From Rhodococcus qingshengii JCM 15477 (GTDB lineage Bacteria; Actinomycetota; Actinomycetes; Mycobacteriales; Mycobacteriaceae), in contig NZ_CP096563.1 of NCBI RefSeq assembly GCF_023221595.1, forward strand, positions 1,842,501-1,906,500: a stretch of 64,000 nucleotides of DNA, written 5' to 3'. How positions within the stretch are numbered: the first letter of the stretch is position 1; every line of letters begins with the position of its first letter. Positions 40,049-62,189 of this stretch are shown in pieces. The translations under genes and the position numbers were made by a program. The notes under the pieces are model-generated. The model did no database searches. It was not told where the DNA came from and saw nothing but the letters and a program-made list of their open reading frames with translations.

Positions 40049-40105
40049 CGCGAAGCTAGTCCTCTCGTGAAGCTGGGTAAAGCGCAGGTCAGTGAAGTGC
40101 AACAT

Positions 40106-40349: not shown

Positions 40350-40409
40350 AAAGATTCGGCTCGAATCCCTCCCGCAGTCACATTCGTGCACATCCCTGAG
40401 GAGATACCG

Positions 40410-41684
40410 ATGGCTATCGAGCTCAACCAGATCTGGGACTTTCCCATCAAGGAGTTCCACCCCTTCCCTCGCGCCCTGATGGGTGTGGGCGCTCACGACA
40501 TCATCGGGGTGGAGGCCAAGAACCTCGGCTTCAAGCGCACCCTTCTGATGACGACCGGTCTGCGCGGTTCGGGCATCATCGAGGAACTCGTCGGCAAGAT
40601 CGAGTACCAGGGTGTCGAGGTCGTGCTCTACGACAAGGTCGAGTCGAATCCCAAGGACTACAACGTCATGGAGGCCGCGGCTCTCTACCAGAAGGAGAAG
40701 TGCGACTCGATCATCTCGATCGGCGGTGGTTCGAGCCACGACGCCGCCAAGGGCGCTCGCGTCGTGATCGCACACGACGGTCGCAACATCAACGAGTTCG
40801 AGGGCTTCGCCAAGTCCACCAACAAGGAGAACCCGCCCCATATCGCCGTATCCACCACGGCCGGAACGGGTTCCGAGACGTCGTGGGCGTACGTCATCAC
40901 CGACACGTCGGACATGAACAACCCGCACAAGTGGGTGGGCTTCGACGAGGCGACCATCGTCACCCTGGCGATCGACGATCCGCTGCTCTACTACACCTGC
41001 CCTCAGCATTTCACCGCGTACTGCGGCTTCGACGTACTCGCGCACGGCAGTGAGCCTTTCGTGTCTCGTCTCGATTTCGCGCCTTCGCTCGGTAACGCGA
41101 TCTACTCGGTCGAGTTGGTCGCGAAGAACCTGCGCGAGGCCGTCTTCGAGCCGCGCAACCTCAAGGCCCGCGAGGGAATGATGAACGCGCAGTACATTGC
41201 CGGGCAGGCCTTCAACTCCGGTGGCCTCGGCATCGTTCACTCGATCTCGCACGCGGTCAGTGCCTTCTTCGACAGCCACCACGGTCTGAACAACGCCATC
41301 GCGTTGCCGCGTGTGTGGGAGTACAACCTGCCTTCGCGCTACGAGCGCTACGCCCAGTTGGCCGGCGCACTCGGTGTCGACACTCGCAACCTCACCACAG
41401 TTCAGGCCGCGGATGCTGCCGTCGAGGCTGCCATCCGTCTGGCCAAGGACGTCGGTATCCCCGACAACTTCGGTCAAGTTCGCACCGACTCGTACGCGAA
41501 GAACCAGATGAACACCAAGAAGTACGAGGGCCGTGGTGATGTCATCAAGGGTGACGAGAAGACTGTGCGCGCCATCTCCGAGCACATTCAGGACGACTGG
41601 TGCACCCCGGGCAATCCCCGTGAGGTCACCGTGGAGTCGATGATCCCGGTTGTCGATCACGCGATCAACAAGTCGTACTTCTAG
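40410..41684 (+). CDS. mno: NDMA-dependent methanol dehydrogenase (mycofactocin-dependent Fe-type ADH)
   Basis: A 424-residue type III (Fe/Zn) alcohol dehydrogenase closely resembling Rhodococcus/Mycobacterium methanol:NDMA oxidoreductase (Mno/MDO, ThcE). NAD-binding loop IGGGSSHDAAKGA is near residue 100; metal ligands appear in DVLAHGSEP and in HSISHAVSAFFDSHHGLNNA. Unlike ordinary NAD-ADHs these enzymes keep tightly bound NAD(H), and in mycobacteria need mycofactocin as the external electron acceptor. GAGGAGA lies 4 bases before the ATG at 40410. Followed by a large hairpin and an AAA+/VWA gene pair on the same strand; the mft locus is 16-23 kb downstream. Confidence 0.93.
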   Translation: MAIELNQIWDFPIKEFHPFPRALMGVGAHDIIGVEAKNLGFKRTLLMTTGLRGSGIIEELVGKIEYQGVEVVLYDKVESNPKDYNVMEAAALYQKEKCDSIISIGGGSSHDAAKGARVVIAHDGRNINEFEGFAKSTNKENPPHIAVSTTAGTGSETSWAYVITDTSDMNNPHKWVGFDEATIVTLAIDDPLLYYTCPQHFTAYCGFDVLAHGSEPFVSRLDFAPSLGNAIYSVELVAKNLREAVFEPRNLKAREGMMNAQYIAGQAFNSGGLGIVHSISHAVSAFFDSHHGLNNAIALPRVWEYNLPSRYERYAQLAGALGVDTRNLTTVQAADAAVEAAIRLAKDVGIPDNFGQVRTDSYAKNQMNTKKYEGRGDVIKGDEKTVRAISEHIQDDWCTPGNPREVTVESMIPVVDHAINKSYF

Positions 41685-41686
41685 CA

Positions 41687-41740
41687 GGGCCTTCGGCCCC
41701 GTGCGCCTTTTTGGTAGCCCGCACTACCAAAAAGGCGCAC
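41687..41740 (+). terminator. Large hairpin between mno and the MoxR gene
   Basis: GTGCGCCTTTTTGGTAG (41701-41717) pairs perfectly with CTACCAAAAAGGCGCAC (41724-41740) across a 6-base loop. The flanking CCCC and GGGG extend it past a one-base bulge. A smaller stem GGGCC/GGCCC (41687-41699) shares those CCCC bases and is followed by CGTGCGCCTTTTT, so two mutually exclusive folds exist. Likely a partial terminator or mRNA end-protector that makes mno more abundant than the downstream pair. Confidence 0.75.
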
Positions 41741-41769
41741 AGGGGCTTGCCCCCCATGAAAGGTGTTCC

Positions 41770-42852
41770 ATGTCCGGTCGCAGTTTCTCCAGCGGAATCG
41801 AAGTGAAAGATGCTCTGCGAGAGCAGGACTACATTGCCGATGACGAGTTCGCGGTAGTCGTTCATCTGGCGACGGCGCTGGGGCGTCCGCTCCTGCTCGA
41901 AGGGCCGGCCGGTGTCGGCAAGACGGAACTGGCGAAGTCTCTGGCTGCGATCGGGGGCCGCAAACTGGTGCGATTGCAGTGCTACGAAGGGCTGGACGAC
42001 AATCGCGCGCTGTACGAATGGGACTACGCGAAGCAACTCCTGCACGTGCAGATGCTCCGCGACCGGATCAGCGATCAGGTTTCCGAATTCGACAGCGTCG
42101 CCGAAGCGTCCAAGTTTCTGGCCGATCAGGATTTCGGTTTGTACTCCGAGAACTTCCTGTCCGTACGACCGCTGCTCGAAGCAATCCTCTCACCCGATCC
42201 GGTAGTGCTTCTGGTCGACGAGGTAGACCGCACCGAGGAGTCGATGGAAGCACTGCTCCTCGAGATTCTCGCCGAACAGCAGATCACCATTCCCGAGGTC
42301 GGTACGTTCGTTGCCCGCTCGCAGCCCTGGGTCATCCTGACGTCCAACGACACCCGCGAGCTCTCACCCGCACTCAAGCGTCGTTGTCTGCATTACCATC
42401 TCGGCTATCCGACGTCGGAGCGTGAACGCGAGATCGTCACGGCCCGAGCGCCGGAGGTGGATTCGGCTACGGCCACCGAGGTCGTCGAATTGGCTCGCAT
42501 CCTGCGTGACCTCCCGCTGCGCAAGAGTCCGTCCATCTCGGAGGTCATCGACGCGGCCAGAGCGGCAACAGTGCTCGCGGCCGGCGGATTCGACACCGCT
42601 TCCGACGCCAAGGTGCGCGACATCCTGCTCACGGCGTTGCTCAAGTACTCGTCCGATGTGACGCTGGCCAAGGAACGATTCGACGGAAAGCGTTTCGAAT
42701 CATCGTCGCGTGACGGTGGCGAGCCGATCGAGCGGGCCACGGTGGCAAGCAAACCCGCCAACACGACGACGGCCGTGTTCCGGGGCACGGGTGGACGTGA
42801 CCCTCATCAACAGGGAATCCGCGGCGGCAGCGGAATCCGTTCGACGCGATGA
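41770..42852 (+). CDS. MoxR-type AAA+ ATPase
   Basis: A 360-residue AAA+ ATPase of the MoxR/CoxD-like group. Walker A LLLEGPAGVGKTELAKSLA is near residue 50, Walker B VVLLVDEVDR near 145, sensor 1 VILTSNDTRELSPALKRRC follows, and a C-terminal lid helical region ends the core. The last ~40 residues are low-complexity and basic. ATG 41770 (MSGRSF) follows AAAGG. It overlaps the VWA gene by 4 bp. MoxR/VWA pairs act as chaperone-like machines that insert metals or activate enzymes (MoxR, CoxD/CoxE, NorQ/NorD); sitting behind mno, its client may be Mno. That client is inferred. Confidence 0.9.
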   Translation: MSGRSFSSGIEVKDALREQDYIADDEFAVVVHLATALGRPLLLEGPAGVGKTELAKSLAAIGGRKLVRLQCYEGLDDNRALYEWDYAKQLLHVQMLRDRISDQVSEFDSVAEASKFLADQDFGLYSENFLSVRPLLEAILSPDPVVLLVDEVDRTEESMEALLLEILAEQQITIPEVGTFVARSQPWVILTSNDTRELSPALKRRCLHYHLGYPTSEREREIVTARAPEVDSATATEVVELARILRDLPLRKSPSISEVIDAARAATVLAAGGFDTASDAKVRDILLTALLKYSSDVTLAKERFDGKRFESSSRDGGEPIERATVASKPANTTTAVFRGTGGRDPHQQGIRGGSGIRSTR

Positions 42853-44372
42853 CGACGCTCGGTGGCCTTGCCGTGTGGCAACCGTCCTTTGTTCTCGACG
42901 TGGTGTCCGCGAGTTTCGGCCGATTGCTGAGGGCGGCCGGAGTTTCCGCGTCACCGGCCGAGGTCATCGAGGTTCGGCGTGTTCTCGCGATGGTCGGCGC
43001 TTCGGATCGTGAGACGTTGCGAGCATGTCTTCGGGCAGTGTGCGCCAAGTACTCTCACGAGCAGGCCGGTTTCGATCGGGCGTTCGACGCGCTGTTCCGG
43101 CCGGCCGCAGGCAAAGCGCACGGCGAGCGGATGGGTTCGCGCGCCGAGGTGGCGGACGGTCTGCCCACCGCGCTGGGGATCGACGAGGATCAAGAAGTTG
43201 GTCGGTACGCCGAGTACAACGAGCGTGCGGCCGAGGTCGGCGACTACTTCGACACTCCGGAAGCGGAGAAGGGCTTCAACCCGCACAAGGACGACGACGA
43301 TGTGTCGATGACGTCGAGCGATGCCGAACTGTCGGTAGATACCGGTTCGGAGACCGGTCGACGCGGAGTCAGTTACACGGTCGACGTGGACCGTGCAGCA
43401 TCGGCGGTGGTCGGTGACCTGAGCACCAGTGTTGCTGCAGCAGTGGTCGGCTCGCTGTCCTGGGACGATCCGACGTCGATCCTCGCCTGGTTGGATGCCT
43501 ACGACCCGAGCAAAGCGTATGCAGATGTCTCCGACGACGGGCCGTTGACGCAAGCACAATTGAACCGGCTCGTCGAGGCGGTCGAAGCGTTCGTGCAAGC
43601 ACTCTCGGCAGCTGCACTCGCCGAAACCGCTCCCGATGCGCCCGACAGTGAATCTGCAGCGGGCGCAACGCACAACGACATCGAACTCGCGTGCCACGAA
43701 GTGCTTCGGCGGATGAGAGGACCGTCCAGACCTCGGCCCCGTGAGCGCTCTCGTGGGCATCTCGACATGCGACGCACGGTGCGTTCGAGTCTGCGCACCG
43801 ACGGAATTCCCTTCCATCTGGTCGTGAAAGCTCCTCGCCCCGATCGTGTTCGACTACTTCTCATCGCCGACGTGTCGCTGTCCGTGCGCCCCATCACCGC
43901 GTTCACTCTGCGCTTGGCTCAGGCAATGCATCGCCGAGCAGATCGTTGTGAAGTCCTCGCCTTCGTCGATCGTCCGGTCGACGTGACCGACACCCTTCTC
44001 GCCAGTAGTGGTGACGGCGCACTGGCCGCGGTACTCGCGCACCCGGTTCTGGATCTGGAAGCCAGCAGCGATTACGGGCGGGTGCTCACAGAATTGTTGG
44101 ACGAGCACGGAAACACCTTGAACTCACGGACGTCTGTCATCATCGTGGGCGACGGTCGGTGCAACGGGTTGCCCCCGCAGGCGGACAAGCTCGAGGAACT
44201 CCGCCGAAAGGTCCACCGTCTGGCCTGGATCACGCCTGAACCACAGCGTTACTGGAACCAGGCATCGTGCGCGATGCCGGAGTATTCGGAGATCTGCGAC
44301 GAGGTTGTTGTTGCCCGAGATGCCGCGCAACTGATGGCAAAGGCCGCCGAGCTGGGGCACGCACTTCGCTGA
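42849..44372 (+). CDS. VWA domain protein, CoxE-like
   Basis: A 507-residue protein. A helical N-terminal half (with acidic linker around residues 110-180) precedes a CoxE-type von Willebrand A domain from about residue 310, with an intact MIDAS start in LLIADVSLSVRP (DxSxS) and a later VIIVGDGRCN. It ends with the CoxE-like WITPEPQRYWNQASCAMPEYSEICDEV. The ATG overlaps the ATPase stop by 4 bp, so a stoichiometric complex is likely. By analogy with CoxE, CbbO and NorD it would bridge the ATPase to a target enzyme. Confidence 0.9.
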   Translation: MTTLGGLAVWQPSFVLDVVSASFGRLLRAAGVSASPAEVIEVRRVLAMVGASDRETLRACLRAVCAKYSHEQAGFDRAFDALFRPAAGKAHGERMGSRAEVADGLPTALGIDEDQEVGRYAEYNERAAEVGDYFDTPEAEKGFNPHKDDDDVSMTSSDAELSVDTGSETGRRGVSYTVDVDRAASAVVGDLSTSVAAAVVGSLSWDDPTSILAWLDAYDPSKAYADVSDDGPLTQAQLNRLVEAVEAFVQALSAAALAETAPDAPDSESAAGATHNDIELACHEVLRRMRGPSRPRPRERSRGHLDMRRTVRSSLRTDGIPFHLVVKAPRPDRVRLLLIADVSLSVRPITAFTLRLAQAMHRRADRCEVLAFVDRPVDVTDTLLASSGDGALAAVLAHPVLDLEASSDYGRVLTELLDEHGNTLNSRTSVIIVGDGRCNGLPPQADKLEELRRKVHRLAWITPEPQRYWNQASCAMPEYSEICDEVVVARDAAQLMAKAAELGHALR

Positions 44373-44428
44373 TGTCAGTGCACTTCACCGATGTCACTGC
44401 GCGATCTGTCGTGAACTAGTTTGATCTC

Positions 44429-44776
44429 ATGTCCGAAATCAGGGGATCGATCTGGCGACCGATCGCGGCGCTGACAGTGCTCGGCGCCGTGTGTGGGGTT
44501 GTGGCGCTCGGCGTGTTTCAGTGGTGGTGGAAGTCGTTGGCGTCACCGCACATTCTCACCGGAGGATCCTATCGGGAGCCGTTTTCCGAACCGACATACA
44601 CCGGACCCATATTCATGGACCTCTTTCCGGCAGAACCTGCCCCGTGGTTGTACTCGGGACTGGTCCTCGGACCGACTGTGGTCGGCTTGCTCGCCGGGAT
44701 CGTGTTCGTGGTCTTCGTCCGGTGTAATCGTGCGCAGAACCGCGCGAGTACACCGGACGAATCATCAGAGCGCTAG
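44429..44776 (+). CDS. Small two-helix membrane protein
   Basis: A 115-residue protein with an N-terminal membrane helix (PIAALTVLGAVCGVVALGVF), about 40 residues outside (rich in Pro and aromatic residues: PHILTGGSYREPFSEPTYTGP), and a second helix (GLVLGPTVVGLLAGIVFVVFV) followed by a short basic/polar tail. It resembles DUF2567-like actinobacterial membrane proteins, weakly. It follows the VWA gene by 56 bases and converges, with a 12-base overlap, on an RNHCP gene. Confidence 0.7.
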   Translation: MSEIRGSIWRPIAALTVLGAVCGVVALGVFQWWWKSLASPHILTGGSYREPFSEPTYTGPIFMDLFPAEPAPWLYSGLVLGPTVVGLLAGIVFVVFVRCNRAQNRASTPDESSER

Positions 44777-45184: not shown

Positions 45185-45195
45185 CTGATTCCCCC

Positions 45196-45558: not shown

Positions 45559-45993
45559 TGGAGAACTCCTAGCTGAGTGAACAAAGCAGTAGGAGCAGGC
45601 CGAGGGGGCCTCGCGGCTGTCAGTCCGACGTTTCGAGGATCAGCATGTGACCCTCGAGGTTGCCGGCAGTGCAGGGGCGGGAGGCGCGCTCGGCGCGGGC
45701 TGGGTCATAAACACCTTCTGAATCGGTTCTACGGGCCACTCTGGCCGCAACCGAAAGTACAGCGGGACCTTCTCGCCGCGCCATTCATTTTCCCGAGACG
45801 CCTTACCTGCCCGAACGGGTAGGTAAGCGCCTCTCCTTCGGTGGGTGTGCCCCGACTGCTGTCCGCGTAGGCTCGGGGCCAGCGATTGTAAGGTGGATCA
45901 CACCAGTTTGTGCACGTGGGAGTTGATGCGCTGAGAGCGACGGATGCGAAATCCCGACCGGAGATCTCAGAGCAGCGAGAGGAGAGTGGGGTC
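45559..45993. other. 435-base intergenic region before the ErcA-like gene
   Basis: Divergent promoter region for the RNHCP pair (leftward) and the ErcA-like operon (rightward). It holds one strong inverted repeat (45802-45827). A short rightward frame at 45577-45822 has poor codon character and no family resemblance and was not accepted. No tRNA or riboswitch structure was recognised. Confidence 0.6.
45802..45827. promoter_or_regulatory. 12-bp inverted repeat, probable operator
   Basis: CTTACCTGCCCG (45802-45813) and CGGGTAGGTAAG (45816-45827) form arms with one mismatch across two bases (AA). The compact form suggests a dimeric regulator site rather than a terminator; no T tract follows. 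It lies 167 bases before the ErcA-like start. A candidate binder is the LuxR-type regulator of the same operon, or a TetR protein elsewhere. Confidence 0.6.
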
Positions 45994-47199
45994 GTGTCCG
46001 TGGCATACCCGGATGCTGTGAACCACGGTGTTCATCGCCGCGGCACTGCTGCTCGACTGGTCAAATTTCACGCCCCCGAGATCGTCTTCGGTATCGGTTC
46101 CCTGGTCGAGGCAGCACACGCGACTCTGAGGTTCGGCGGGTTCCGACCATTCCTGGTCACCGATCCCGGTCTGATCGACGCGGGATGGGTCAGCGAACTC
46201 GAAGACCATCTCACGGAGCAGGGATTGACGGCGACGGTGTGGTCAGGGCTGACGCCCAATCCCAAGGACTTCGAGATCGCGGCCGGTTTCGAGGTGTACC
46301 AGGAAGGTGAGTGTGACGTCATCATCGCGCTCGGCGGCGGTTCCGTCATCGACGCGGCTAAGGGTGTAGCCGTCCTCGCTGCCAACGGTGGCAACATACT
46401 CGACTACGAGGGGGTAGATCAGGCGACCAAACCGATCCCGCCGTTGGTGATGGTTCCCACCACGTCCGGCACGGGCGCGGACGTGTCGCAGTTCTGCATC
46501 GTCACGGACACGACCCGCGGCACCAAGATCACCATCATCGGCCGGGCGCTGGTGCCAGATGTGACGGTCATCGATCCGCGGTTGCTCACGACGATGCCCG
46601 AGTGGCTCAATGCGGCAACAGGATTGGACGCACTGACGCACGGAATCGAAGCCTTCGTCTCACTGGCGCACAATCCGTTGACCGATCATCACGCGCTCCG
46701 CGCTGTCGGCCTAGTGACCGAGAATCTGGTGCACACGATCCAGGACCCGATGGAGATGGAAGCTCGATCGGTGATGGCGCAGGCGAGCCTCGAGGCCGGG
46801 TTGGCGTTCACCAACGCGATACTCGGAGCCGCGCACGCCATGAGTCATCAGGTGGGCGGCATGCTCGACCTTCCGCACGGCGTCATCAACGGAATTCTCT
46901 TGCCCCACGTCATCCGGTTCAATTCCACCACGGACGCCGCCCCCTTTGTCGCCATCGCTGCGGCACTGAGTCTTCCCGAGCAACGCGGCACCCCGGAGGA
47001 AGCAGCGCTGGCAGTGGCCGACCGTGTCGAACGTCTCGCACGGGAGGTCGGTGTGCCGAAGGGGCTGGGGGAGTTGGGTGTTCGCGAGGAAGACCTGAGT
47101 AGGCTCGCCAGCTTCGCGTTGCTCGACGCCTGCATGTCCACCAATCCCAGGGAAGCGACGCAGGAACAGATGGTGGCGTTGTTCCGAGGTGCCTTGTGA
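45994..47199 (+). CDS. ErcA-like iron-containing alcohol dehydrogenase
   Basis: A 401-residue type III Fe-ADH, clearly distinct from Mno. NAD loop IIALGGGSVIDAAKG; metal ligands in LDALTHGIEAF and GAAHAMSHQVGGMLDLPHG; VPTTSGTGADVSQF typical of the family. It resembles ErcA, an Fe-ADH-like protein of the Pseudomonas ethanol-oxidation regulon encoded beside a soluble sensor kinase. GTG 45994 follows GAGAGGAGAG by 8 bases. Immediate downstream neighbours are a GAF histidine kinase and a LuxR-type regulator, so a sensing or signal-tuning role is likely; a catalytic role in alcohol oxidation remains possible. Confidence 0.88.
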   Translation: MSVAYPDAVNHGVHRRGTAARLVKFHAPEIVFGIGSLVEAAHATLRFGGFRPFLVTDPGLIDAGWVSELEDHLTEQGLTATVWSGLTPNPKDFEIAAGFEVYQEGECDVIIALGGGSVIDAAKGVAVLAANGGNILDYEGVDQATKPIPPLVMVPTTSGTGADVSQFCIVTDTTRGTKITIIGRALVPDVTVIDPRLLTTMPEWLNAATGLDALTHGIEAFVSLAHNPLTDHHALRAVGLVTENLVHTIQDPMEMEARSVMAQASLEAGLAFTNAILGAAHAMSHQVGGMLDLPHGVINGILLPHVIRFNSTTDAAPFVAIAAALSLPEQRGTPEEAALAVADRVERLAREVGVPKGLGELGVREEDLSRLASFALLDACMSTNPREATQEQMVALFRGAL

Positions 47200-47245
47200 A
47201 GATGGACGCTGTGAAGATGGACGCTGTGAAGAGGGCCGCTGTGAA
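47196..47245. repeat. 15-bp tandem repeat at the ErcA/kinase junction
   Basis: GTGAAGATGGACGCT (47196-47210) is repeated exactly at 47211-47225, imperfectly at 47226-47240 (GTGAAGAGGGCCGCT) and begins again (GTGAA) at 47241. In the kinase frame it would encode CEDGR three times if translation starts at GTG 47189. It starts one base before the ErcA-like stop codon. Confidence 0.88.
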
Positions 47246-47257
47246 TTGGTGCAGGCG

Positions 47258-48631
47258 ATGACCGCGGACCTGTCCCGGCTCACCGGATTACGATCGGGTA
47301 AGAGTTCGTTCTACCCGCAGTATCGCGGTGCGGCCGAGCGCCTCGAACGCGTCGTGCATGCCTTGGAGTTGATCTCGCGGGCTTTGGTGCGCACCGTCGA
47401 GGGGCCGGAAACCCTCGTCTGCGCGGTCGCGGAAGCTGCCCGTGCGCATCTGAGTGCCAACTGGATTGTCTTCGCCTTGGCTGACGGAACTTTGCCCGAC
47501 GCCGGACCACGGCGACTGGTTCTCGGCCCGGACGCCACCCCTTTTCTGGTCGACAACGTCGAGGGGCCGCCACTTCCGGAGGATGTCGTCGAATGCCTCG
47601 ACGACATCCGGTACGGAAGAATCGAATCCAACTCGGTGATCGACGCGCACTACGCGTTTGTGCCGATCGTGCTCGGTGGCGGCGTGGTAGGTGCCTTTGC
47701 AGCCTGGACGCCGGCCAACCGAACCCTCGACACGACGGACGGAGCCGTGCTCAGCATTCTGGCCAGCCAGACTGCTGTGGCTCTGCAGAATTCGGCGCTC
47801 TATCAGCGCGGACAACTACTGCTCGAGCGTGCCGAAGATGCGTATGCGGAGGCCAATCGTACTGCAGCCGACCTTGCGGTGCGCAACAGCGAATTGGAGT
47901 CCACTCAGCGTCAACTCGGAGTGGCGCACCGGCACCAAGTGGTCGACGACGAACGTCACCGGATCGCCCGCGAACTGCACGACAGTGTGACACAGGCGGT
48001 GTTGTCGGCGGGCATGCAGATCGAGGTCTGCCGGAGCGACATCCCGGAGGCTGAACGCAGTGAAAGACTGGACTTGGCAAAGGATTTGACCAGGAGGGCG
48101 GTCGAGCAGCTTCGTTCGGCGATCTATGCGCTCAATCATTCGTCGGACGCGGACCGGACGTCGTTGCCCGAGATGCTCGAGCAACTCGGCGTGGTTCACA
48201 TGCCGGACGAGTTGGCGGTGAGCGTTCGCGTCGGCGGTACCCCGACCGAACTTCCGGGCGATGCCGAACACGCTCTTCTCCGGATCGCTGGGGAAGCTCT
48301 CTTCAATGCAGCGGTCCATGCTCACGCGAATCGGGCGGTGCTACGTCTGACCTATCGGGCGGACTCCGTGTTGCTGTCGGTCTCCGACGACGGTGACGGC
48401 GACCCTGCGCGAATGCGTCTGATCCTCAAACTCGCAGCCACCAACGACGTCGACGGCCGCCATCGCGGTCTCGCGAACATGCAGGCGCGAACACTCGAGT
48501 TGGGTGGTGCGCTCGAAGTACGGCGCGCGCGGATCGGTGGGATTCAGATTCTCGTGCGACTACCACTGCCGTTCGACTCGGGCATGGAAAACCTTTGCTC
48601 CACCACTGAAATCGAGAGCGAGGAATCATGA
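47258..48631 (+). CDS. Soluble GAF-domain sensor histidine kinase
   Basis: About 457 residues without membrane segments. An N-terminal GAF-like domain runs from about residue 35 to 180 (VFALADGTLPDAG, GGGVVGAFAAWTP, LSILASQTAVALQNSALYQRG). A coiled-coil linker (ERAEDAYAEANRTAADLAVRNSELE) follows, then HisKA_3 with the phospho-His in RIARELHDSVTQAVL, and a HATPase domain ending in GLANMQARTLELGGALEV. ATG 47258 is a conservative start; GTG 47249 or GTG 47189 (including the CEDGR repeats) are possible. Forms a two-component pair with the next gene, overlapping by 4 bp. Confidence 0.88.
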   Translation: MTADLSRLTGLRSGKSSFYPQYRGAAERLERVVHALELISRALVRTVEGPETLVCAVAEAARAHLSANWIVFALADGTLPDAGPRRLVLGPDATPFLVDNVEGPPLPEDVVECLDDIRYGRIESNSVIDAHYAFVPIVLGGGVVGAFAAWTPANRTLDTTDGAVLSILASQTAVALQNSALYQRGQLLLERAEDAYAEANRTAADLAVRNSELESTQRQLGVAHRHQVVDDERHRIARELHDSVTQAVLSAGMQIEVCRSDIPEAERSERLDLAKDLTRRAVEQLRSAIYALNHSSDADRTSLPEMLEQLGVVHMPDELAVSVRVGGTPTELPGDAEHALLRIAGEALFNAAVHAHANRAVLRLTYRADSVLLSVSDDGDGDPARMRLILKLAATNDVDGRHRGLANMQARTLELGGALEVRRARIGGIQILVRLPLPFDSGMENLCSTTEIESEES

Positions 48632-49311
48632 CCACTGCGCGTCCCGTCATCACCCGCGGAGCATCGCCGGTTCAGGGATTGGTTCGAATCGTCCTGGTCG
48701 ACGACCATGCAATTCTGCGGCAAGGGCTCCGCTCGGTTCTCGAGCGCGAAAGCGATCTCGAGATCGTGGGGGAGGCGTCGTCCCTCGCCGAGGCCCTCGC
48801 CGTGGTCGACAAGGTCGGCCCGGACATCGTCCTGATGGATCTCAAACTCTCCGCCAGTTCCGACTACGAGGGACTGACCCTGTGTGGCCAGCTGTCCTCG
48901 GCGCATCCCGGCCTCGGACTGTTGGTTCTCACCACGTTTCTCGACGATCAACTGGTGGTGCGAGCGGTGCACGCGGGTGCTCGCGGCTATGTCGTCAAAG
49001 ACGTCGACACCACCGAATTGGTGCGTGCGATCAGGGCGGTCTCGCGGGGTGAGAGTGCGTTCGATTCGCGCAGCGCGTCAGCTGTCGTGCGATCGCTCAA
49101 CGGGCAGTCGTCGTCGAAAGAACGATTGACCGATCGCGAACTCGAAGTGCTCAGACTCCTCGCAAACGGCTTGTCCAACATCAAGATCGGTGAGAGATTG
49201 TTCATCTCACCGACCACCGTCAAATTTCACGTCAGCAACATCATGCGCAAACTCGAGGTGAGCCGTCGAGCAGAGGCCGTCTACGCCGCGAGTAAGCAAG
49301 GTCTGATCTAG
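48628..49311 (+). CDS. LuxR/NarL-type response regulator
   Basis: A 227-residue regulator with an N-terminal receiver (IVLVDDHAILRQGL, phospho-acceptor Asp in DIVLMDLKLS, Thr in LVLTTFLDD, Lys in GYVVKDV). The C-terminal LuxR helix-turn-helix is LTDRELEVLRLLANGLSNIKIGERLFISPTTVKFHVSNI in order. It overlaps the kinase gene by 4 bp. Probably activates alcohol-oxidation genes; targets might include the ErcA-like operon itself and mno, which is inferred from the neighbourhood. Confidence 0.92.
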   Translation: MTTARPVITRGASPVQGLVRIVLVDDHAILRQGLRSVLERESDLEIVGEASSLAEALAVVDKVGPDIVLMDLKLSASSDYEGLTLCGQLSSAHPGLGLLVLTTFLDDQLVVRAVHAGARGYVVKDVDTTELVRAIRAVSRGESAFDSRSASAVVRSLNGQSSSKERLTDRELEVLRLLANGLSNIKIGERLFISPTTVKFHVSNIMRKLEVSRRAEAVYAASKQGLI

Positions 49312-55722: not shown

Positions 55723-56556
55723 TCAGGCGGCCGATGCGTCCAGCACCAACCAGCCGCCGTGATGCTCGAATACCTCGAACGGCACACGGCTCTGCCGGCC
55801 GACCGCACGCAGTGACTCGAGATCGAAAGTGCGGATGTGGCCGTGGCACGCGGTGGCTTCGTCTTCGAAGGGGACTGCAATGACGACCCGTTGACGCGCG
55901 ATCCGGAGTGCTTGCGCGATCACGGCCTCGCCGACTGCGTCGTCGACGTGTTCGAGGAGATGAATCGCGGTGACGGTGTCGGCGCTGTTGTCCGGTGCCG
56001 GTACTTCACCCGCGTCGCAGATCACCGTGTCGATCGTGATGCCGAGTTCGGGGGCAACCGCGTCGAGCAGGATCATCGTTCCGGGCAGGATGTCCGTGGC
56101 GGTCACGTCCATTCCGGCGCGCGCGAGCCGCAGGGGCAGGAAACCGAAGCAGGAACCCAGATCGAGCACGGAACCGCGGACCAGCTCTTCGGCTTTGTCG
56201 TGAATCGGCGCGAAATCTGCAGTGCCGTCCAGTAGTTCGGCAAGGGAGTTCCGGTAGTAGGTGGTCCAGGATTCGAGAGCGCCGTCCACGGTGGAGCGAA
56301 CCAGGCCGACCATCGTCAACTCGAATTCGTCCTGACCGAACTCCGCGTCCTGGATCGACGAGGTGACTCCGGCGACGAGTCGCTCACTCAGATCGGCGGG
56401 AGTGAGGGAGTGCTTGACGTGGAGGCGACCGCCTCGGCGATCGAGCGAGATCGGACCGGACTCGACGCGTTCGACGGTGACATGCCCGAACGACCACAAG
56501 CCCGGCGTCGACGGCGCCAGGGAATCCAGGACGGGTTCGTTCGTGATGGTGGACAT
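55723..56556 (-). CDS. mftM: Mycofactocin oligosaccharide methyltransferase MftM
   Basis: A 277-residue SAM-dependent methyltransferase. N-terminal region GLWSFGHVTVERVESGPISLDRRGGRLHV is typical of MftM; the SAM site is VLDLGSCFGFLPLRLARAGM, with DTVTAIHLLEHVDD as motif for the Rossmann core. MftM methylates the glucose chain of glycosylated mycofactocin. ATG 56556 (MSTITNEP) is preferred; the frame to 56784 overlaps mftR. It lies 29 bases after the mftR stop and belongs to the leftward arm of the mycofactocin locus. Confidence 0.87.
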   Translation of the reverse strand: MSTITNEPVLDSLAPSTPGLWSFGHVTVERVESGPISLDRRGGRLHVKHSLTPADLSERLVAGVTSSIQDAEFGQDEFELTMVGLVRSTVDGALESWTTYYRNSLAELLDGTADFAPIHDKAEELVRGSVLDLGSCFGFLPLRLARAGMDVTATDILPGTMILLDAVAPELGITIDTVICDAGEVPAPDNSADTVTAIHLLEHVDDAVGEAVIAQALRIARQRVVIAVPFEDEATACHGHIRTFDLESLRAVGRQSRVPFEVFEHHGGWLVLDASAA

Positions 56557-56585
56557 GATCGCCTTTCTCAGGTGGTGATGCTTTC

Positions 56586-57185
56586 TCAGGTGCTGATACC
56601 GGTCCGCAGGGACTGCGTACCTGTTTTCAAGAGTTCCGGTAGCTCGAGTGAATCGTCGGTGAGCCACTGCTCGTACGCCGACATCGCGACCCCGAGCAGA
56701 AGATAGCCGACCGTGCGCGGGCCGTGATCGGTCGGCTCGAGATTCATTCGGCGTGCGACGTAGTCGGCGACCACCTGCCGCCAACCTTCGTACATCACCA
56801 CAGAGTATGCCTGAAGCGTCGGAACTTCGAGGATCAATTCCATCCGTTTGCGATGTACCGCAGTCTCTTCCGGTGGGAAGGTGTTGAACGTCAACAATGC
56901 GGATTCGAGTGCGTCGACCAACGGAATATCAGCGGGCAGTGAATCCAGGTGCTCGCGCATCTCGTCGAGATGTCCGTCGAAGTCTCCCCAGGGGACGGCG
57001 TTCTTGGACGGGAAGTAGCGAAAGAAGGTCCGACGCGCGATTCCGGCGGCATCGGCTATCTGGTCGACGCTCACCTCGTTGAAGCCGACTGTCGAGAACA
57101 GTTCGATCCCGATCGTGCTGATTCCCTCCTTCGTTGTGGAGGGGCGACGACCTATCCGAGCGGACGGTTTCTTGCGGCTACGCAT
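56586..57185 (-). CDS. mftR: Mycofactocin locus TetR regulator MftR
   Basis: A 199-residue TetR regulator: IGIELFSTVGFNEVSVDQIADAAGIARRTFFRYFPSKNAVPWGDF is the classical MftR N-terminal HTH followed by its conserved FPSKNAVPWGDFD stretch; HRKRMELILEVPTLQAYS follows in the ligand domain. MftR of mycobacteria represses mftA and responds to acyl-CoA. It is divergent from mftA, with a 150-bp gap holding an inverted repeat. Confidence 0.93.
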   Translation of the reverse strand: MRSRKKPSARIGRRPSTTKEGISTIGIELFSTVGFNEVSVDQIADAAGIARRTFFRYFPSKNAVPWGDFDGHLDEMREHLDSLPADIPLVDALESALLTFNTFPPEETAVHRKRMELILEVPTLQAYSVVMYEGWRQVVADYVARRMNLEPTDHGPRTVGYLLLGVAMSAYEQWLTDDSLELPELLKTGTQSLRTGIST

Positions 57186-57284
57186 ACTTTTTTCGCTCCA
57201 TGTGTGTCATTCTGCACTCGATGCCATTACAGTGGTGAACCGAGTCACAGTGAAGTCCCACTAGTGACCACCAACTCCCAGGTT

Positions 57285-57307
57285 GGAAGTCTGATCTACA
57301 GACTTCC
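57285..57307. promoter_or_regulatory. 9-bp inverted repeat upstream of mftA
   Basis: GGAAGTCTG (57285-57293) and CAGACTTCC (57299-57307) flank ATCTA, 28 bases before mftA. A weaker arrangement, GTCACAGTG ... CACTAGTGAC, lies at about 57244-57268. Either could be the MftR site; the first could also fold in the mftA leader RNA. Confidence 0.7.
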
Positions 57308-57335
57308 AGACGGAGTGCGACCGCAGGAGGAATCC

Positions 57336-57431
57336 ATGTCAGATCGTGACAACAAGGCGCTCGAGAACGACCTCGTCGAGGAGTCCCTCGTGGAGGAAGT
57401 TTCCATCGACGGCATGTGCGGCGTGTACTGA
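57336..57431 (+). CDS. mftA: Mycofactocin precursor peptide MftA
   Basis: A 31-residue precursor ending in IDGMCGVY, the invariant core: the last Val-Tyr pair is decarboxylated, cross-linked and excised to form premycofactocin. The acidic leader (LENDLVEESLVEEVS) is the docking site for MftB. A perfect AGGAGG lies 5 bases before the ATG, matching the need for abundant substrate. Too short for most gene callers but unambiguous by its end and context. Confidence 0.97.
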   Translation: MSDRDNKALENDLVEESLVEEVSIDGMCGVY

Positions 57432-57433
57432 CC

Positions 57434-57703
57434 GTGTCTGCTTTGGATCTCGATGCGGGGTGGAAACTCCACCCGCAGGTAGCGCTTCGCCCCGAACCTT
57501 TCGGGGCGTTGCTCTACCACTTCGGAACACGCAAGCTGTCGTTCCTGAAGAACACGACCATCGTTGCGGTGGTCAAGGCGTTGCCAGACCATCCTGATGT
57601 CCGGTCCGCACTACGTGCGCAAGGCATCGAAGATGACGCGGCTCCCCAATATGCCCGCGCGCTGAGCACTCTCGCCGACTCGCACATGATCGTGCCTGTC
57701 TGA
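57434..57703 (+). CDS. mftB: Mycofactocin peptide chaperone MftB
   Basis: An 89-residue PqqD-like RiPP recognition protein: LDAGWKLHPQVALRPEPFGALLYHFGTRKLSFLKN, read in two parts, is the conserved beta-sheet that binds the leader of MftA and presents it to MftC. GTG 57434 begins two bases after the mftA stop; a GTG at 57416 inside mftA is the alternative. Followed by a perfect hairpin before mftC. Confidence 0.93.
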   Translation: MSALDLDAGWKLHPQVALRPEPFGALLYHFGTRKLSFLKNTTIVAVVKALPDHPDVRSALRAQGIEDDAAPQYARALSTLADSHMIVPV

Positions 57704-57720
57704 GCCAGACGCTCGCCCCC

Positions 57721-57746
57721 ACGTGCGGAACAGCCCTTCCGCACGT
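57721..57746 (+). terminator. Perfect hairpin between mftB and mftC
   Basis: ACGTGCGGAA (57721-57730) pairs exactly with TTCCGCACGT (57737-57746) across a CAGCCC loop, in the 76-bp gap between mftB and mftC. There is no T tract, so it is more likely a partial terminator or processing/stability hairpin that keeps the peptide and chaperone mRNA above the radical SAM mRNA. Confidence 0.65.
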
Positions 57747-57779
57747 TCGCCCGCTTCATTTCTTCGCGAGGACACAGCC

Positions 57780-58997
57780 ATGACCTCAGTTCTTGAACAG
57801 CCCTCCCCGCCCGCCAAGGTGGGTCGCCTCGTCGATCAGTTCGAACTCGGACTCGACGCCCCCATCTGCCTGACGTGGGAACTCACCTACGCCTGCAACC
57901 TGTCCTGCGTGCACTGCCTTTCGTCGTCGGGTCGTCGTGACCCCAACGAGCTGAGCACCGAACAGTGCAAGTCCATCATCGACGAGCTGCAGCGTATGCA
58001 GGTTTTCTACGTCAACATCGGTGGCGGCGAGCCGACGGTACGCTCCGACTTCTGGGAGCTCGTCGACTACGCGACCGACCACCAGGTTGGTGTGAAGTTC
58101 TCCACCAACGGCGTGAAGATCGACAAGAAGGTCGCGGCGCGCCTCGCAGCCAGTGACTACGTCGACGTGCAGATTTCCATCGACGGTGCCACCGCTGAGG
58201 TCAATGACGCTGTGCGCGGGCCTGGTTCGTTCGCGATGGCCGAGCGCGCTCTCGCGAACCTGAAGGAAGCCGGCTTCAAGGACGCCAAGATTTCGGTGGT
58301 CGTCACGCGGCACAACGTCAGTCAGCTCGACGAGTTCAAGGCTCTCGCGGACAAGTACGACGCGACCCTGCGCATCACTCGACTGCGTCCTTCGGGCCGC
58401 GGCGCCGACGTGTGGGACGACCTGCACCCGCGTCCGGAGCAGCAGCGTGAGCTCTACAACTGGCTGGTCGCCAATGGCGAAGGCGTCCTGACCGGCGACT
58501 CGTTCTTCCACCTCTCCGCCTTCGGCGATGCACTGCCCGGTCTCAATCTCTGTGGCGCGGGCCGCGTCGTGTGCCTGATCGACCCGGTCGGTGACGTGTA
58601 CGCATGCCCCTTCGCGATTCACGAGCAGTTCCTCGCCGGAAACATCGTGAAAGACGGTGGATTCCAGGAAGTCTGGCAGCACTCGGACCTGTTCGAGGAG
58701 CTGCGCTCGCCCCAAACCGGTGGCGCCTGCAGCAAGTGCAACCACTACGACTCCTGCCGCGGCGGCTGCATGGCGGCCAAGTTCTTCACCGGACTGCCGA
58801 TGGACGGACCTGACCCCGAGTGCGTCATCGGTAACGGTGAAATGGCACTGGCGTCGGCGGGCGAGGTCCCGAAGTCCAGTGTCGACCACTCCCGTTCCGG
58901 TCAACGTAAGACCCCACGCGCATCGGTGCCACTGACACTGATGATGCGTCCGCCCGCCAAGATTTGTGACGAAAACCCGCTTGCGGGAATGCAGTAA
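57780..58997 (+). CDS. mftC: Mycofactocin radical SAM maturase MftC
   Basis: A 405-residue radical SAM/SPASM enzyme. The SAM-cluster motif CxxxCxxC is at residues 39, 43 and 46 (ACNLSCVHC); GGGEPTVRSDFW follows. Auxiliary cluster cysteines appear in ACPFAIHE, GACSKCNHYDSCRGGCMAAKFF and DPECV. It decarboxylates the C-terminal Tyr of MftA and forms the Val-Tyr cross-link. ATG 57780 (MTSVLEQP) has GAGGA upstream. The last ~35 residues are a divergent basic/polar tail ending KICDENPLAG. Confidence 0.97.
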   Translation: MTSVLEQPSPPAKVGRLVDQFELGLDAPICLTWELTYACNLSCVHCLSSSGRRDPNELSTEQCKSIIDELQRMQVFYVNIGGGEPTVRSDFWELVDYATDHQVGVKFSTNGVKIDKKVAARLAASDYVDVQISIDGATAEVNDAVRGPGSFAMAERALANLKEAGFKDAKISVVVTRHNVSQLDEFKALADKYDATLRITRLRPSGRGADVWDDLHPRPEQQRELYNWLVANGEGVLTGDSFFHLSAFGDALPGLNLCGAGRVVCLIDPVGDVYACPFAIHEQFLAGNIVKDGGFQEVWQHSDLFEELRSPQTGGACSKCNHYDSCRGGCMAAKFFTGLPMDGPDPECVIGNGEMALASAGEVPKSSVDHSRSGQRKTPRASVPLTLMMRPPAKICDENPLAGMQ

Positions 58998-59052
58998 CTA
59001 CTGCGCGATACCGACAGTGCGGCGAAAGCTGCACCCCAGAGAGGTCAGTTCA

Positions 59053-60231
59053 ATGGCTAAGAATGCTTTCTTCGAGACGGTGGCAGAAGCACAGCGCCGT
59101 GCGAAGAAGAGGTTGCCCAAGTCCGTGTACGCGGCGTTGGTGGCGGGATCCGAGAAAGGGCTGACGGTCGACGACAACGTCGCGGCATTCAGCGAATTGG
59201 GTTTCGCTCCCCACGCTGCCGGGCTGTCGGACAAGCGCGAGATGTCCACCACCATTATGGGCCAGGACATTTCGTTGCCCGTCATGATTTCACCGACCGG
59301 TGTGCAGGCAGTGCACCCCGACGGTGAAGTAGCGGTAGCCCGTGCGGCTGCAGCACGGGGAACAGCCATCGGACTGAGTTCTTTTGCCAGCAAGTCCATC
59401 GAAGAAGTTGCCGCGGCCAACCCGCAGGTCTTCTTCCAGATGTATTGGGTCGGCAGCCGCGACGTGCTCCTGCAGCGTATGGAGCGCGCTCGCGCTGCCG
59501 GTGCCAAGGGCCTGATCATCACCACCGACTGGTCCTTCTCGTACGGTCGCGACTGGGGCAGCCCGTCCATCCCCGAAAAGATGGACCTCAAGGCGATGTT
59601 CCAGTTCGCACCCGAGGGAATCATGCGCCCGAAGTGGTTGCTCGAGTTCGCCAAGACCGGCAAGATCCCGGACCTGACCACCCCCAACCTCGCGGCTCCC
59701 GGCCAGCCTGCACCGACGTTCTTCGGCGCATACGGCGAGTGGATGCAGACTCCGCTTCCGACGTGGGAAGACATCGCCTGGCTTCGTGAGCAGTGGGGTG
59801 GACCGTTCATGCTCAAGGGCATCATGCGCATCGACGACGCCAAGCGAGCTGTCGACGCCGGTGTCTCCGCTATCTCGGTCTCCAACCACGGTGGTAACAA
59901 CCTCGACGGCACCCCGGCGCCGATCCGTGTGCTCCCGGGCATTGCCGAGGCCGTGGGCGATCAGGTGGAAGTTGTTCTCGACGGCGGCATTCGACGCGGC
60001 GGCGACGTCGTCAAGGCGCTCGCACTCGGAGCCAAGGCCGTCATGCTCGGGCGCGCCTACCTGTGGGGCCTCTCGGCCAACGGCCAGGCCGGTGTCGAGA
60101 ACGTGCTCGACCTCATGCGGATGGGCATCGACTCGGGGCTGATGGGCCTCGGCCACTCGTCCATCACCGAACTGAGCCCGGCGGACCTGGTGATACCGGA
60201 AGGCTTCACACGCACATTGGGTGCCAGCTGA
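59053..60231 (+). CDS. mftD: Premycofactocin synthase MftD
   Basis: A 392-residue FMN-dependent protein of the alpha-hydroxyacid oxidase (LldD-like) fold. KNAFFETVAEAQRRAKKRLPKSVYAAL is the MftD-specific start; MISPTGVQAVHPDGEVAVARAA, SVSNHGGNNLDGTPAPIRVL and the phosphate site LDGGIRRGGDVVKALALGAKAVMLGR follow in order. It oxidatively deaminates the excised cyclised dipeptide to premycofactocin. GAGAGG precedes the ATG at 59053. Next gene of the mft operon. Confidence 0.95.
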   Translation: MAKNAFFETVAEAQRRAKKRLPKSVYAALVAGSEKGLTVDDNVAAFSELGFAPHAAGLSDKREMSTTIMGQDISLPVMISPTGVQAVHPDGEVAVARAAAARGTAIGLSSFASKSIEEVAAANPQVFFQMYWVGSRDVLLQRMERARAAGAKGLIITTDWSFSYGRDWGSPSIPEKMDLKAMFQFAPEGIMRPKWLLEFAKTGKIPDLTTPNLAAPGQPAPTFFGAYGEWMQTPLPTWEDIAWLREQWGGPFMLKGIMRIDDAKRAVDAGVSAISVSNHGGNNLDGTPAPIRVLPGIAEAVGDQVEVVLDGGIRRGGDVVKALALGAKAVMLGRAYLWGLSANGQAGVENVLDLMRMGIDSGLMGLGHSSITELSPADLVIPEGFTRTLGAS

Positions 60232-60257
60232 GATTACGGCTCCGATAGAGCTGTGAG

Positions 60258-62189
60258 TTGACACTCGACGAACACACGACCCTGGCCGGACGCCTCGTCC
60301 GGTCCAGGGTTGTTTTCGGTCCGCACGAGACCAATCTTGCTGTGGGACGCTCGCTTTCCGATCGGCACCGTGCGTACTACCAGCGCCGCGCCGAGGGCGG
60401 AACCGGGATCGTCGTCACCGAAGTGGCCTCGGTATCGGAGAACGACTGGCCGTACGAGCGGGCGCCGTTGGCGTCGCAATGTGGCCCGGGGTGGCAGTCG
60501 ATCGCGGCTGCATGTGCTCCGTACGGAACGCTGGTTCTGGCCGGGCTCGGTCATACCGGGATGCAGGGATCGAGCGCATACTCCCAGTCGGTGCTGTGGG
60601 GACCGTCCAGAGTGGCCGACCCGGCGACGCGTGAGTTGCCGATGGCAATGGGGCAGGCGCAAATCGACCAGTTGATAGCCGGCTTCCGTGAGGCGTCGGC
60701 GCTGGCCGTCGCTTCGGGAATGGACGGAGTGGAACTCGATGCCGGTCCTCGAAGCATTCTGCGACAATTCCTTTCGGGTCTGACCAACACTCGGCAAGAC
60801 CGATACGGTAGCGATCGCGTTGCTCTTGTTCGCGAGGTCATCTCGGCAGTGCGCGAGGAAGTCGGGTCGGATCACGTTGTCTCCCTGCGGTTGTCCTGTG
60901 ACGAGGAAGCTCCATGGGCGGGCCTGACGCCCGATCTTGCCTTCGGTATCGCGCGTGAAGTGTCTCCGTTCCTCGATCTCCTTGTCGTCGTTCGTGGCGG
61001 ACTCTATTCGTCTGACCGGTACCGCCCCGATTTTCACTGCCCGCCGAACTTCAACCTCGATCTGTGCCGTGTGATCAAGGCCGCTCTGTCGATTCCTGTT
61101 GTCGTGCAGGGGAGCGTCGTGGACATCGCCGACGCTCACGCGGCGCTGGAAGTAGGTGAGTTCGTCGAGATGACCCGGGCCCAGATCGCAGACCCGGACC
61201 TGGTCGTGAAAGCCGCGCGCGGCGATCGTCCCCGGCCGTGTGTGCTCTGCAATCAGACGTGCCTCGTGCGTGATCCTCGCAATCCTGTCGTGACGTGCGT
61301 CGGGAATCCGAGCGCGGGTTTCGAGACGGTGGACCCCGATGAGCGAGAGCAGATTTCGACACCGGGAGCCGTGCTGGTCGTGGGGGGTGGCCCCGCTGGG
61401 ATGGAAGCCGCACGGATCTCGGCGGTGGCGGGGCACTCGGTCACACTCGTCGAGAGTTCATCGCAGTTCGGCGGCATGATCCGAACTTTTGCGCGAGGTG
61501 ACGGCCGTAGCCGGTTCGCACTCCTCGCGCAGTGGTTGGAGGACGAATGCCGTCGTAGCGGCGTGACGATGCGGACCGGGGCGGCGCTCGACGCCCAAGA
61601 CCTGGGTGACGCACGCAGCCGGGGCGAGTTTGTTGTCGTTGCCACCGGTAGTGCTGCGAGGCCGCCGACGTATCCGGTCGACGATTCGGTTCGGTGGTTG
61701 GATGCGTCGGAAGCCTTCGAGAAGTTGAGCACCGTGGGGCCGGGTCCGGTCGCGCTGATCGATCCCCTCGGTGGACCGATCGCGGTGGCGCTCGCAGAAG
61801 CACTCGCGGCCCATGGCATCTCCGTCTCGATTGTGACTCCCGACAGCATCGTCGGTTCGAGGCTCGGTGCGAGTGGGGATCTGGTCGGTGCCAACACGCG
61901 CATCCAGCAGGCCGGGGTCACCAGGGTGCTCGCGTCACGTGTCACCGAAATCGCTCGAGGGGCCGTCTGCGTCGAACACGTCCATACCGGCGAGCGGTCG
62001 CAGCTCGAGTGCGAAGTGGTGATCGACTGCTCGCCTCGTCTGCCGAACGAAACGCTGAAGGAAGAGGCCGACATTCAGGTGGGCGACTCGGTTGCCCCGA
62101 GAACTGTTCTCGAATCCATCCGCGAAGGGCGCTTTGCAGGGTTTACTACTAGAACGAGTTTCAATTCTGCAGAGAGGGCTATCTCATGA
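60258..62189 (+). CDS. Mycofactocin-system FadH/OYE family oxidoreductase
   Basis: A 643-residue old-yellow-enzyme/FadH-type protein. An N-terminal FMN barrel (VVFGPHETNLAVGRSLSDRHRAYY, LDAGPRSILRQFLSG) is followed by a [4Fe-4S] cysteine cluster (CVLCNQTCLVRDP ... VVTCVGNP) and a C-terminal FAD/NAD domain (AVLVVGGGPAGMEAARISAVAG). Its OYE active-site pattern differs from the next OYE. The start is an uncommon TTG at 60258, 26 bases after mftD; no ATG/GTG fits the family start. Seems to be the type 1 OYE of mycofactocin loci. Exact reaction unknown. Confidence 0.88.
   Translation: MTLDEHTTLAGRLVRSRVVFGPHETNLAVGRSLSDRHRAYYQRRAEGGTGIVVTEVASVSENDWPYERAPLASQCGPGWQSIAAACAPYGTLVLAGLGHTGMQGSSAYSQSVLWGPSRVADPATRELPMAMGQAQIDQLIAGFREASALAVASGMDGVELDAGPRSILRQFLSGLTNTRQDRYGSDRVALVREVISAVREEVGSDHVVSLRLSCDEEAPWAGLTPDLAFGIAREVSPFLDLLVVVRGGLYSSDRYRPDFHCPPNFNLDLCRVIKAALSIPVVVQGSVVDIADAHAALEVGEFVEMTRAQIADPDLVVKAARGDRPRPCVLCNQTCLVRDPRNPVVTCVGNPSAGFETVDPDEREQISTPGAVLVVGGGPAGMEAARISAVAGHSVTLVESSSQFGGMIRTFARGDGRSRFALLAQWLEDECRRSGVTMRTGAALDAQDLGDARSRGEFVVVATGSAARPPTYPVDDSVRWLDASEAFEKLSTVGPGPVALIDPLGGPIAVALAEALAAHGISVSIVTPDSIVGSRLGASGDLVGANTRIQQAGVTRVLASRVTEIARGAVCVEHVHTGERSQLECEVVIDCSPRLPNETLKEEADIQVGDSVAPRTVLESIREGRFAGFTTRTSFNSAERAIS

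Follow-up and report, generated by a model that had tools for sequence, protein, structure and literature searches.

The AAA+ ATPase MadB and the VWA protein MadC accompany the methanol dehydrogenase Mno and may install its metal

The stretch of DNA analysed here, referred to below as the window, comprises 64,000 nucleotides of Rhodococcus qingshengii JCM 15477 (contig NZ_CP096563.1, positions 1,842,501 to 1,906,500). It carries mno, the gene of an N,N-dimethyl-4-nitrosoaniline (NDMA)-type methanol dehydrogenase of the iron-containing alcohol dehydrogenase (Fe-ADH) family, followed by madB and madC, which encode a MoxR-type AAA+ ATPase and a VWA protein. On genomic grounds Mno is very probably the client of MadB and MadC, and we lean towards the view that the two proteins are a MoxR-AAA+/VWA motor installing the active-site metal of Mno. 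The pairing with Mno, the matching of types, the histidine motifs and the neighbouring genes are read directly from sequence, and the architecture from structure models. MadB and MadC are already named as curated families in NCBIfam, with family titles that give no function, and no function for either was found in the literature searched, which did not cover the papers on RHA1 MadA/EgaA and on M. smegmatis mno.

Results

Organisation of the mno-madB-madC locus

40410..41684, + strand: mno, NDMA-type methanol dehydrogenase, Fe-ADH family (TIGR04266, 974 bits, cut-off 625)
41770..42852, + strand: madB, MoxR-type AAA+ ATPase (NF047784, 537 bits, cut-off 475)
42849..42852, + strand: 4-bp overlap of the madB stop and the madC start
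42849..44372, + strand: madC, VWA protein (NF047783, 798 bits, cut-off 600; PF05762 VWA_CoxE, 115 bits)

Coordinates and family scores confirm the arrangement described in an earlier note on this DNA, in which mno was followed by AAA+ and VWA genes overlapping by 4 bp, and the same order recurs at 16/16 copies of mno in the genome sample described below. The ATG of mno at 40410 sits within a longer open reading frame (ORF) with a GTG start at 40386. Numbered from this ATG, the predicted metal ligands of Mno are D208, H212, H277 and H291, which are identical in 41/41 Mno rows; their roles are carried over from related enzymes treated in the available part of PMC3602061. The rows used for conservation, for histidine-motif counts and for trees represent a chosen subset of loci.

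The madB ORF opens at 41650, and the family-consistent start is the ATG at 41770, located 85 bp downstream of mno. Alignments place Walker A at residues 45-52 of MadB and Walker B at residues 147-151, the Walker residues being invariant in 67 rows, and matches to PF07728 and PF00004 correspond to the AAA+ module. The window MadB, a type-1 copy in the classification given below, has no His-rich tail. MadC consists of a helical N-terminal domain (residues 13-83), a disordered linker (about 85-232), helices, and a VWA domain (about 335-507). Its metal ion-dependent adhesion site (MIDAS) contains DxSxS at 341-345 and D435; D341, S343, S345, S407 and D435 are kept in 45/45 rows, and the threonine of the DxSxS-T-D signature appears to be a serine here.

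MadB and MadC are paired with Mno

The class sample was one set of 394 Actinomycetes genomes, in which the best candidates of each genome were scored (three for MadC, four each for Mno and MadS, five for mftC, with MadC matches listed down to about 130 bits). Mno over the cut-off was found as 16 copies in 15 genomes, and full-length MadC likewise 16 times in the same 15 genomes, seven over the cut-off and nine at 250-294 bits. At 16/16 Mno copies MadC lies on the same strand with the two starts 2.3-2.8 kb apart, and MadB lies between Mno and MadC in the window and at 15/15 fetched class-sample loci. In the 379 Mno-free genomes of the sample no MadC (NF047783) match exceeded 158 bits. The Fisher test gives p 2e-27, a calculation that ignores kinship in samples that are not phylogenetically independent. 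The client that the earlier note had proposed from adjacency is thus supported, MadC being present at all 16 Mno copies and the pair not being found widely away from mno in the class sample.

The named Mno loci, the best 80 of 415, give the same picture. All are type 1 at the matched Mno, and L091, L095, L100 and L124 repeat class-sample loci. MadB was present in 80/80 and MadC in 79/80, the contig ending at that place in the exception (L130). Mno is 100% identical to the window copy in loci that include those named Rhodococcus globerulus, R. erythropolis and R. qingshengii. Copy number also follows Mno. Genome G139 has two mno-madB-madC triads (type 1 and type 2, on separate contigs), yet a single MadS, and in a Pseudonocardia metagenome-assembled genome a type-1 triad is followed directly, in tandem, by a type-2 triad (L117, 9400-17940). 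In these two cases, therefore, every Mno has its own pair. Two local variants were recorded: at L160 (3924-7176) tandem madC copies follow one mno-madB, the second madC being without the His motif, and at L164 (5953-7203, genome G513) the place expected for madC is taken by an unrelated ORF that runs into the madB end.

The possibility that the window pair is a generic CoxE-like pair was rejected, as scores fall to 158 bits or less below the 16 full-length matches. Some NF047783 match occurs in 255/394 genomes and, among the matches listed, most are partial; these partial matches may largely represent other AAA+/CoxE-like VWA pairs. The genome of the window itself has a second pair of this kind (L169, 7839-10222; near position 4,000,000 of contig C1 of G000), close to genes whose sequences resemble proA and nadD.

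Matched types and histidine motifs

In trees of Mno, MadB and MadC, all of the quick kind, types 1, 2, 2b and 3 each form one clade in all three. Type 1 comprises the window, Rhodococcus, Mycolicibacterium, Gordonia and kin, and type 2 Nocardioides and others; types 2b and 3 both belong to family f58, in another part of the phylum, and L165 is a lone long branch. Of 103 Mno places, 95 are type-matched across the three proteins and two are matched without a MadC call, while the remaining six, each from f58 or f69, are incomplete or of ambiguous type; there are no clear type swaps. This matching missed the MadC of L114, which the locus comparison does show. The scanned proteins of types 2, 2b and 3 score below the MadB and MadC cut-offs (240-375 bits), yet form the same triad.

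The types differ in histidine content. An HxH or longer motif lies at residues 64-88 of MadC in 27/27 rows of types 2, 2b and 3 (HxHxH in 26/27) and in 0/16 type-1 rows, window included. This position is near the start of the disordered linker, which begins at about residue 85 in the model. In MadB, HxHxH is found in 24/27 rows of types 2, 2b and 3 versus 0/16 type-1 rows, in a row set that includes L087 with a wrong ORF call (884 aa). Among database proteins, at least 5 His per 20 aa are present in 118/120 type-2 MadB versus 0/80 of type 1, and HxHxHDDL is present in 116/120 type-2 MadC, with HxHxH in 1/79 of type 1; the 120 MadB and 120 MadC type-2 proteins are a biased set because they are the best matches to His-rich queries. 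In the unbiased class sample HxHxH occurs in 9/9 type-2 MadC, and at least 8 His in 20 aa occur in eight of nine type-2 MadB, the ninth (L062) having 4. Type 1 is joined with types 2 and 2b at support 81, so that a loss of histidines in type 1 and two gains elsewhere are both possible.

Structure models

Foldseek searches with the MadB model (m6ec160277e34) gave NorQ as the best match (E 1.3e-11), followed by CbbQ (E 1.1e-10). With the MadC model (m21bfb12971c6) the best match was NorD (9qhe_G, E 2.2e-6), with Midasin close (7.1e-6). The predicted local distance difference test (pLDDT) score of the MadC model is about 80-91 for residues 11-80, below 50 for residues 86-212 and 215-231, and about 80-96 from residue 331. 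In the region examined for a VWA finger of the kind that enters the ATPase pore, ahead of the VWA core, helices (235-290) and strands with a helix (294-330) have medium or low pLDDT. A PDB sequence search with MadB returned Midasin and, weakly, NorQ, and one with the MadC profile gave no relevant match. Judged from the models, the pair has the MoxR AAA+/VWA architecture, that is, an AAA+ protein with Walker motifs and an adjoining MIDAS VWA protein with N-terminal domain, linker and VWA domain. In NorD, linker and finger are required for iron insertion, according to the accessible part of PMC13036017.

Nickel-related genes and other evidence on metal

The genes around the type-3 pair were compared at 21 loci, all of family f58; L161 (contig end), L164 (MadC not adjacent) and L190 (contig end inside MadC) were excluded, and L162 and L191, which are the same locus, were counted once. 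Upstream of madC, Mno is present at 16 loci, the contig ends first at four (L168, L173, L184, L189), and L187 is the exception. Downstream of madC there is a Nudix gene at 20/21 loci, a NicO nickel/cobalt transporter gene at 18/21, FUR at 8/21 and a gene for an SCO4226-like nickel-responsive protein at 7/21. The module was recognised by similarity, with the genes of L162, L163, L166 and L168 as references and with Pfam on part of the set. NicO scores over the cut-off in 11/13 type-3 genomes searched; it adjoins madC in all 11 and is the sole copy in nine.

Related groupings occur in the three type-2b genomes. In G463, mftB-C-D-E-F (mftE just under the cut-off) is followed on one strand by Nudix, FUR, NicO and nickel-responsive genes. 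In G594, Nudix, NicO and nickel-responsive genes lie 2-4 kb past mftB on the opposite strand. In G442, Nudix, FUR, NikL-like and nickel-responsive genes are near mft genes, with no NicO; the L166 relative of this NikL-like gene scores below the family cut-off. Two further observations concern these genes. At L168 (311-2987) and L192 (13674-16845), genes read from their sequences as L-aspartate oxidase-like and cysteine desulfurase-like face the nickel module, and the NicO-family match of the window genome (302 bits; G000, C1, 4999965-5000831) has an in-frame TGA inside.

The pair might instead be a general chaperone with no role in metal, one that helps the large Mno oligomer to assemble or controls its quality. 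This would predict neither the His clusters nor the linkage to nickel genes, and is an unlikely account of the pair. The Nudix genes bear on a different explanation, and one that the earlier note had listed for NADH, the removal of an inhibitory nucleotide. MadBC would then be a CbbQO-like activase extracting ADP-ribose or dead-end NADH from Mno, with no metal insertion. CbbQ is indeed among the structural matches of MadB, and the related Mdh of B. methanolicus binds NAD(H) tightly (PMC3602061); moreover ACT, a Nudix protein, clears ADP-ribose and so relieves inhibition of the B. methanolicus methanol dehydrogenase, as stated in the section available of PMC12926040. In type-3 loci, however, the Nudix enzyme could do this job alone, and an activase leaves unexplained the His motifs of both partners as well as the NicO, FUR and nickel-responsive genes. 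We consider it a possible but rather improbable explanation.

Published data also touch on metal. A response to Ni or Co is reported for certain methanol dehydrogenases of the Fe-ADH family (PMC8741260 and PMC12093947, both available in part). In M. smegmatis, the transcripts of MSMEG_6240-6242 drop 24- to 28-fold when zur is deleted and 3- to 4.6-fold under excess zinc, according to the accessible text of PMC7174638. By order and annotation we read these three genes as madC, madB and mno, and their response to zinc and zur suggests that the operon responds to metal status in M. smegmatis too. Taken together, the structural matches, the conserved ligands and MIDAS, the Ni/Co response and the zinc/zur effect favour metal insertion, with nucleotide removal as its main rival.

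The sensing module, the mycofactocin cluster and other neighbours

Further downstream in the window are the following features.

45910..47199, + strand: ErcA-like Fe-ADH, probably part of the alcohol-sensing module (NF041833, 472 bits, under the cut-off of 550)
47189..48631, + strand: madS, sensor kinase (NF047786, 671 bits)
48628..49311, + strand: madR, response regulator (NF047785, 365 bits)
55723..63013: mycofactocin cluster by NCBIfam, with mftM on the - strand, and mftA, mftB, mftC, mftD and OYE-family and SDR oxidoreductases on the + strand

From the locus, and from the available part of PMC11303327, madS and madR of the window would be equivalent to MnoS/MnoR of M. smegmatis. ErcA, MadS and MadR share the locus in most type-1 loci, and MadS over the cut-off was found in 14 of the 15 Mno genomes of the class sample and in none other of the 394. 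MadBC might therefore be part of this alcohol-sensing system rather than of the enzyme. Against this, 11/80 named loci have Mno-MadBC without ErcA, MadS or MadR in the fetched region, the regulators sit elsewhere in G266 and G373, and at L056, L057 and L060 they are on the strand opposite mno-madBC. In G139, the MadBC copies track Mno and MadS does not. A regulatory role for the pair is accordingly very unlikely.

Mycofactocin relates to the pair differently. The mftC gene of the window cluster was detected also by the genome profile search, and mftC was found in 113/394 class-sample genomes, including all 15 with Mno over the cut-off; it is also present in all three type-2b genomes (G442, G463, G594) and in G537 (L165). 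Mno over the TIGR04266 cut-off thus comes with mftC in 15/15 class-sample genomes and in G442 and G463, and mft genes are near the window and type-2b loci. These facts would suit a coupling of Mno to mycofactocin by MadBC, through docking or cofactor exchange. On the other side, 98 of the 394 genomes are mftC-positive with neither Mno over the cut-off nor full-length MadC, and mftC over the cut-off is absent from 21/21 searched genomes with type-3 Mno and/or MadC. The latter are G543, G572, G453, G513, G533 and 16 of a further 17 genomes, the seventeenth (G594) being type 2b; their completeness is 75-100%, with eight at 95% or more, and the search did not extend to G590 and G598, which have MadC fragments. 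Single absences of mftC mean little, and 21/21 is hard to explain by gaps. MadBC does not follow mycofactocin, and the pair is not confined to genomes with mft genes. Coupling to mycofactocin is disfavoured by the 21 genomes and is very unlikely. Of the functions raised in the earlier note, metal installation is the one favoured, by the His motifs of the sister types and the nickel genes of one family. Of the co-occurrences that the note proposed to check, the one with mno is seen at 16/16 copies, and the one with mft genes is missing from the type-3 genomes searched for mftC. Mno-like enzymes are present in type-3 genomes (G572 and kin) that have no mftC over the cut-off.

Other parts of the window locus were also inspected. 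Between madC and the ErcA-like gene (44373-45909, about 1.5 kb), NCBIfam and Pfam searches on four ORFs gave no family, and this spacer differs in length between close Rhodococcus relatives. A PaaE-like ferredoxin-type reductase gene (38993-40105) is divergent from mno and adjoins it in many Rhodococcus loci too. Upstream of mno in type-1 loci, a search for a regulator box found no 12-mer common to at least 25 of 71 upstream regions, and the upstream region in the window has local palindromes only.

Discussion

Metal insertion by MadB and MadC is the reading that we moderately prefer. We infer a physical complex of the two proteins with Mno, remodelling driven by ATP, and the insertion and identity of the metal, as well as the equivalence of type 1 to the other types. 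By analogy with NorQ/NorD, a MadB ring would grip MadC, and ATP would bring about rotation of the VWA domain and stretching of the disordered linker, while MadC would hold Mno through its MIDAS site. The active site of Mno would thereby be opened so that the right divalent metal can enter. In types 2, 2b and 3 this metal, nickel or cobalt being the best guess, would be held by the His clusters of both proteins, which in MadC lie where the linker begins, and a NicO transporter encoded in the same cluster may be its source in types 2b and 3. In the window type, which has no His clusters, the metal would come from another pool. Since the type-1 pair is without His motifs and the type-1 and type-2 loci are without nickel genes, metal insertion at the window locus is an extrapolation from the other types.

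A bolder extension is that the Mno-family alcohol dehydrogenases, mycofactocin-dependent ones included, are nickel (or cobalt) enzymes with MadB/MadC as their ATP-driven metal insertase; this we regard as tentative and on the doubtful side. Poly-His stores on the motor would then hand the metal to a site that otherwise takes the wrong ion, and in the lineage of the window, type 1, the His reservoir would have disappeared or the metal changed. The metals reported for members of the Fe-ADH family are zinc, cobalt, manganese and magnesium, a best response to nickel is also reported, and the effects of ions conflict (PMC8741260, PMC12093947 and PMC12926040, each available in part).

A number of observations weigh against a dedicated metal motor for Mno. 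Some concern the pairing itself. The Mno of L164 (G513) has MadB but no adjoining MadC, the MadC of that genome being on another contig (L168) behind a MadB end; G543 showed no full-length MadC, its Mno lying at a contig end; the MadC of L187 is 5'-truncated, and neither MadB nor Mno precedes it within 2.9 kb; and the gap between madB and madC is 1.1-1.5 kb in L172, L173 and L178. Others concern the metal. The pair of the window, being type 1, has no His cluster, and the triad of L165, the long branch, lacks HxHxH. A search of the window, the 80 named loci and the 15 class-sample loci, among them those of His-rich type 2, did not reveal the nickel module and gave as module-like matches only a weak Nudix in L090 and a weak FUR in L100. 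Having been seen in family f58 only, the module may be peculiar to it. NicO is also present in three of four f58 genomes lacking a MadC match (G431, G403 and G473; not G417), while L179 is without any module gene and L166 and L178 are without NicO. The NicO family includes exporters, so the module could serve detoxification. For NAD-dependent Mdh, the accessible part of a review states that Co and Zn mostly inhibit and that Mg, Fe or Mn mostly raise activity (PMC8741260). Zinc might act on the M. smegmatis transcripts by an indirect route. Finally, among the 50 rows shown by a VIA-align search with MadC, NorD is not listed and Midasin and generic VWA domains lead, and the literature searched yielded neither a solved structure nor a metal analysis for a Mno of these loci.

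How Fe-ADH enzymes acquire the right metal is unsettled, and a dedicated loading motor, if true, would explain specificity. It might then bear on the activation of Mno-type enzymes in other hosts, and for strains engineered to use methanol or glycols there would be a pair of named genes to test. The proposal offers a job for two named actinobacterial families without function in the literature searched, and sets enzyme maturation apart from the mycofactocin electron carrier.

The closest known system is NorQ/NorD, which inserts non-heme iron into cNOR. It shares with MadBC a MoxR AAA+ protein and a VWA protein with N-terminal domain, disordered linker and MIDAS. However, its client is a membrane reductase and that of MadBC a soluble Fe-ADH, the MadBC of types 2, 2b and 3 has His clusters, and identity in the structural matches is 14-19%. 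CbbQ/CbbO, the Rubisco activase, is likewise a MoxR AAA+ and VWA pair serving one enzyme, with CbbQ among the matches of MadB; it differs from MadBC in client and sequence, and would differ in task too if metal insertion is right. The Nudix protein ACT of B. methanolicus is, like MadBC, an accessory to an Fe-ADH methanol dehydrogenase, and Nudix genes occur in type-3 and type-2b loci. Unlike the MadBC ATPase motor, ACT is a small hydrolase, and the window has no match to the Nudix genes of these loci. Poly-His metallochaperones such as HypB, UreE and SlyD carry His stretches suited to Ni, Zn or Co, on folds unrelated to MadBC.

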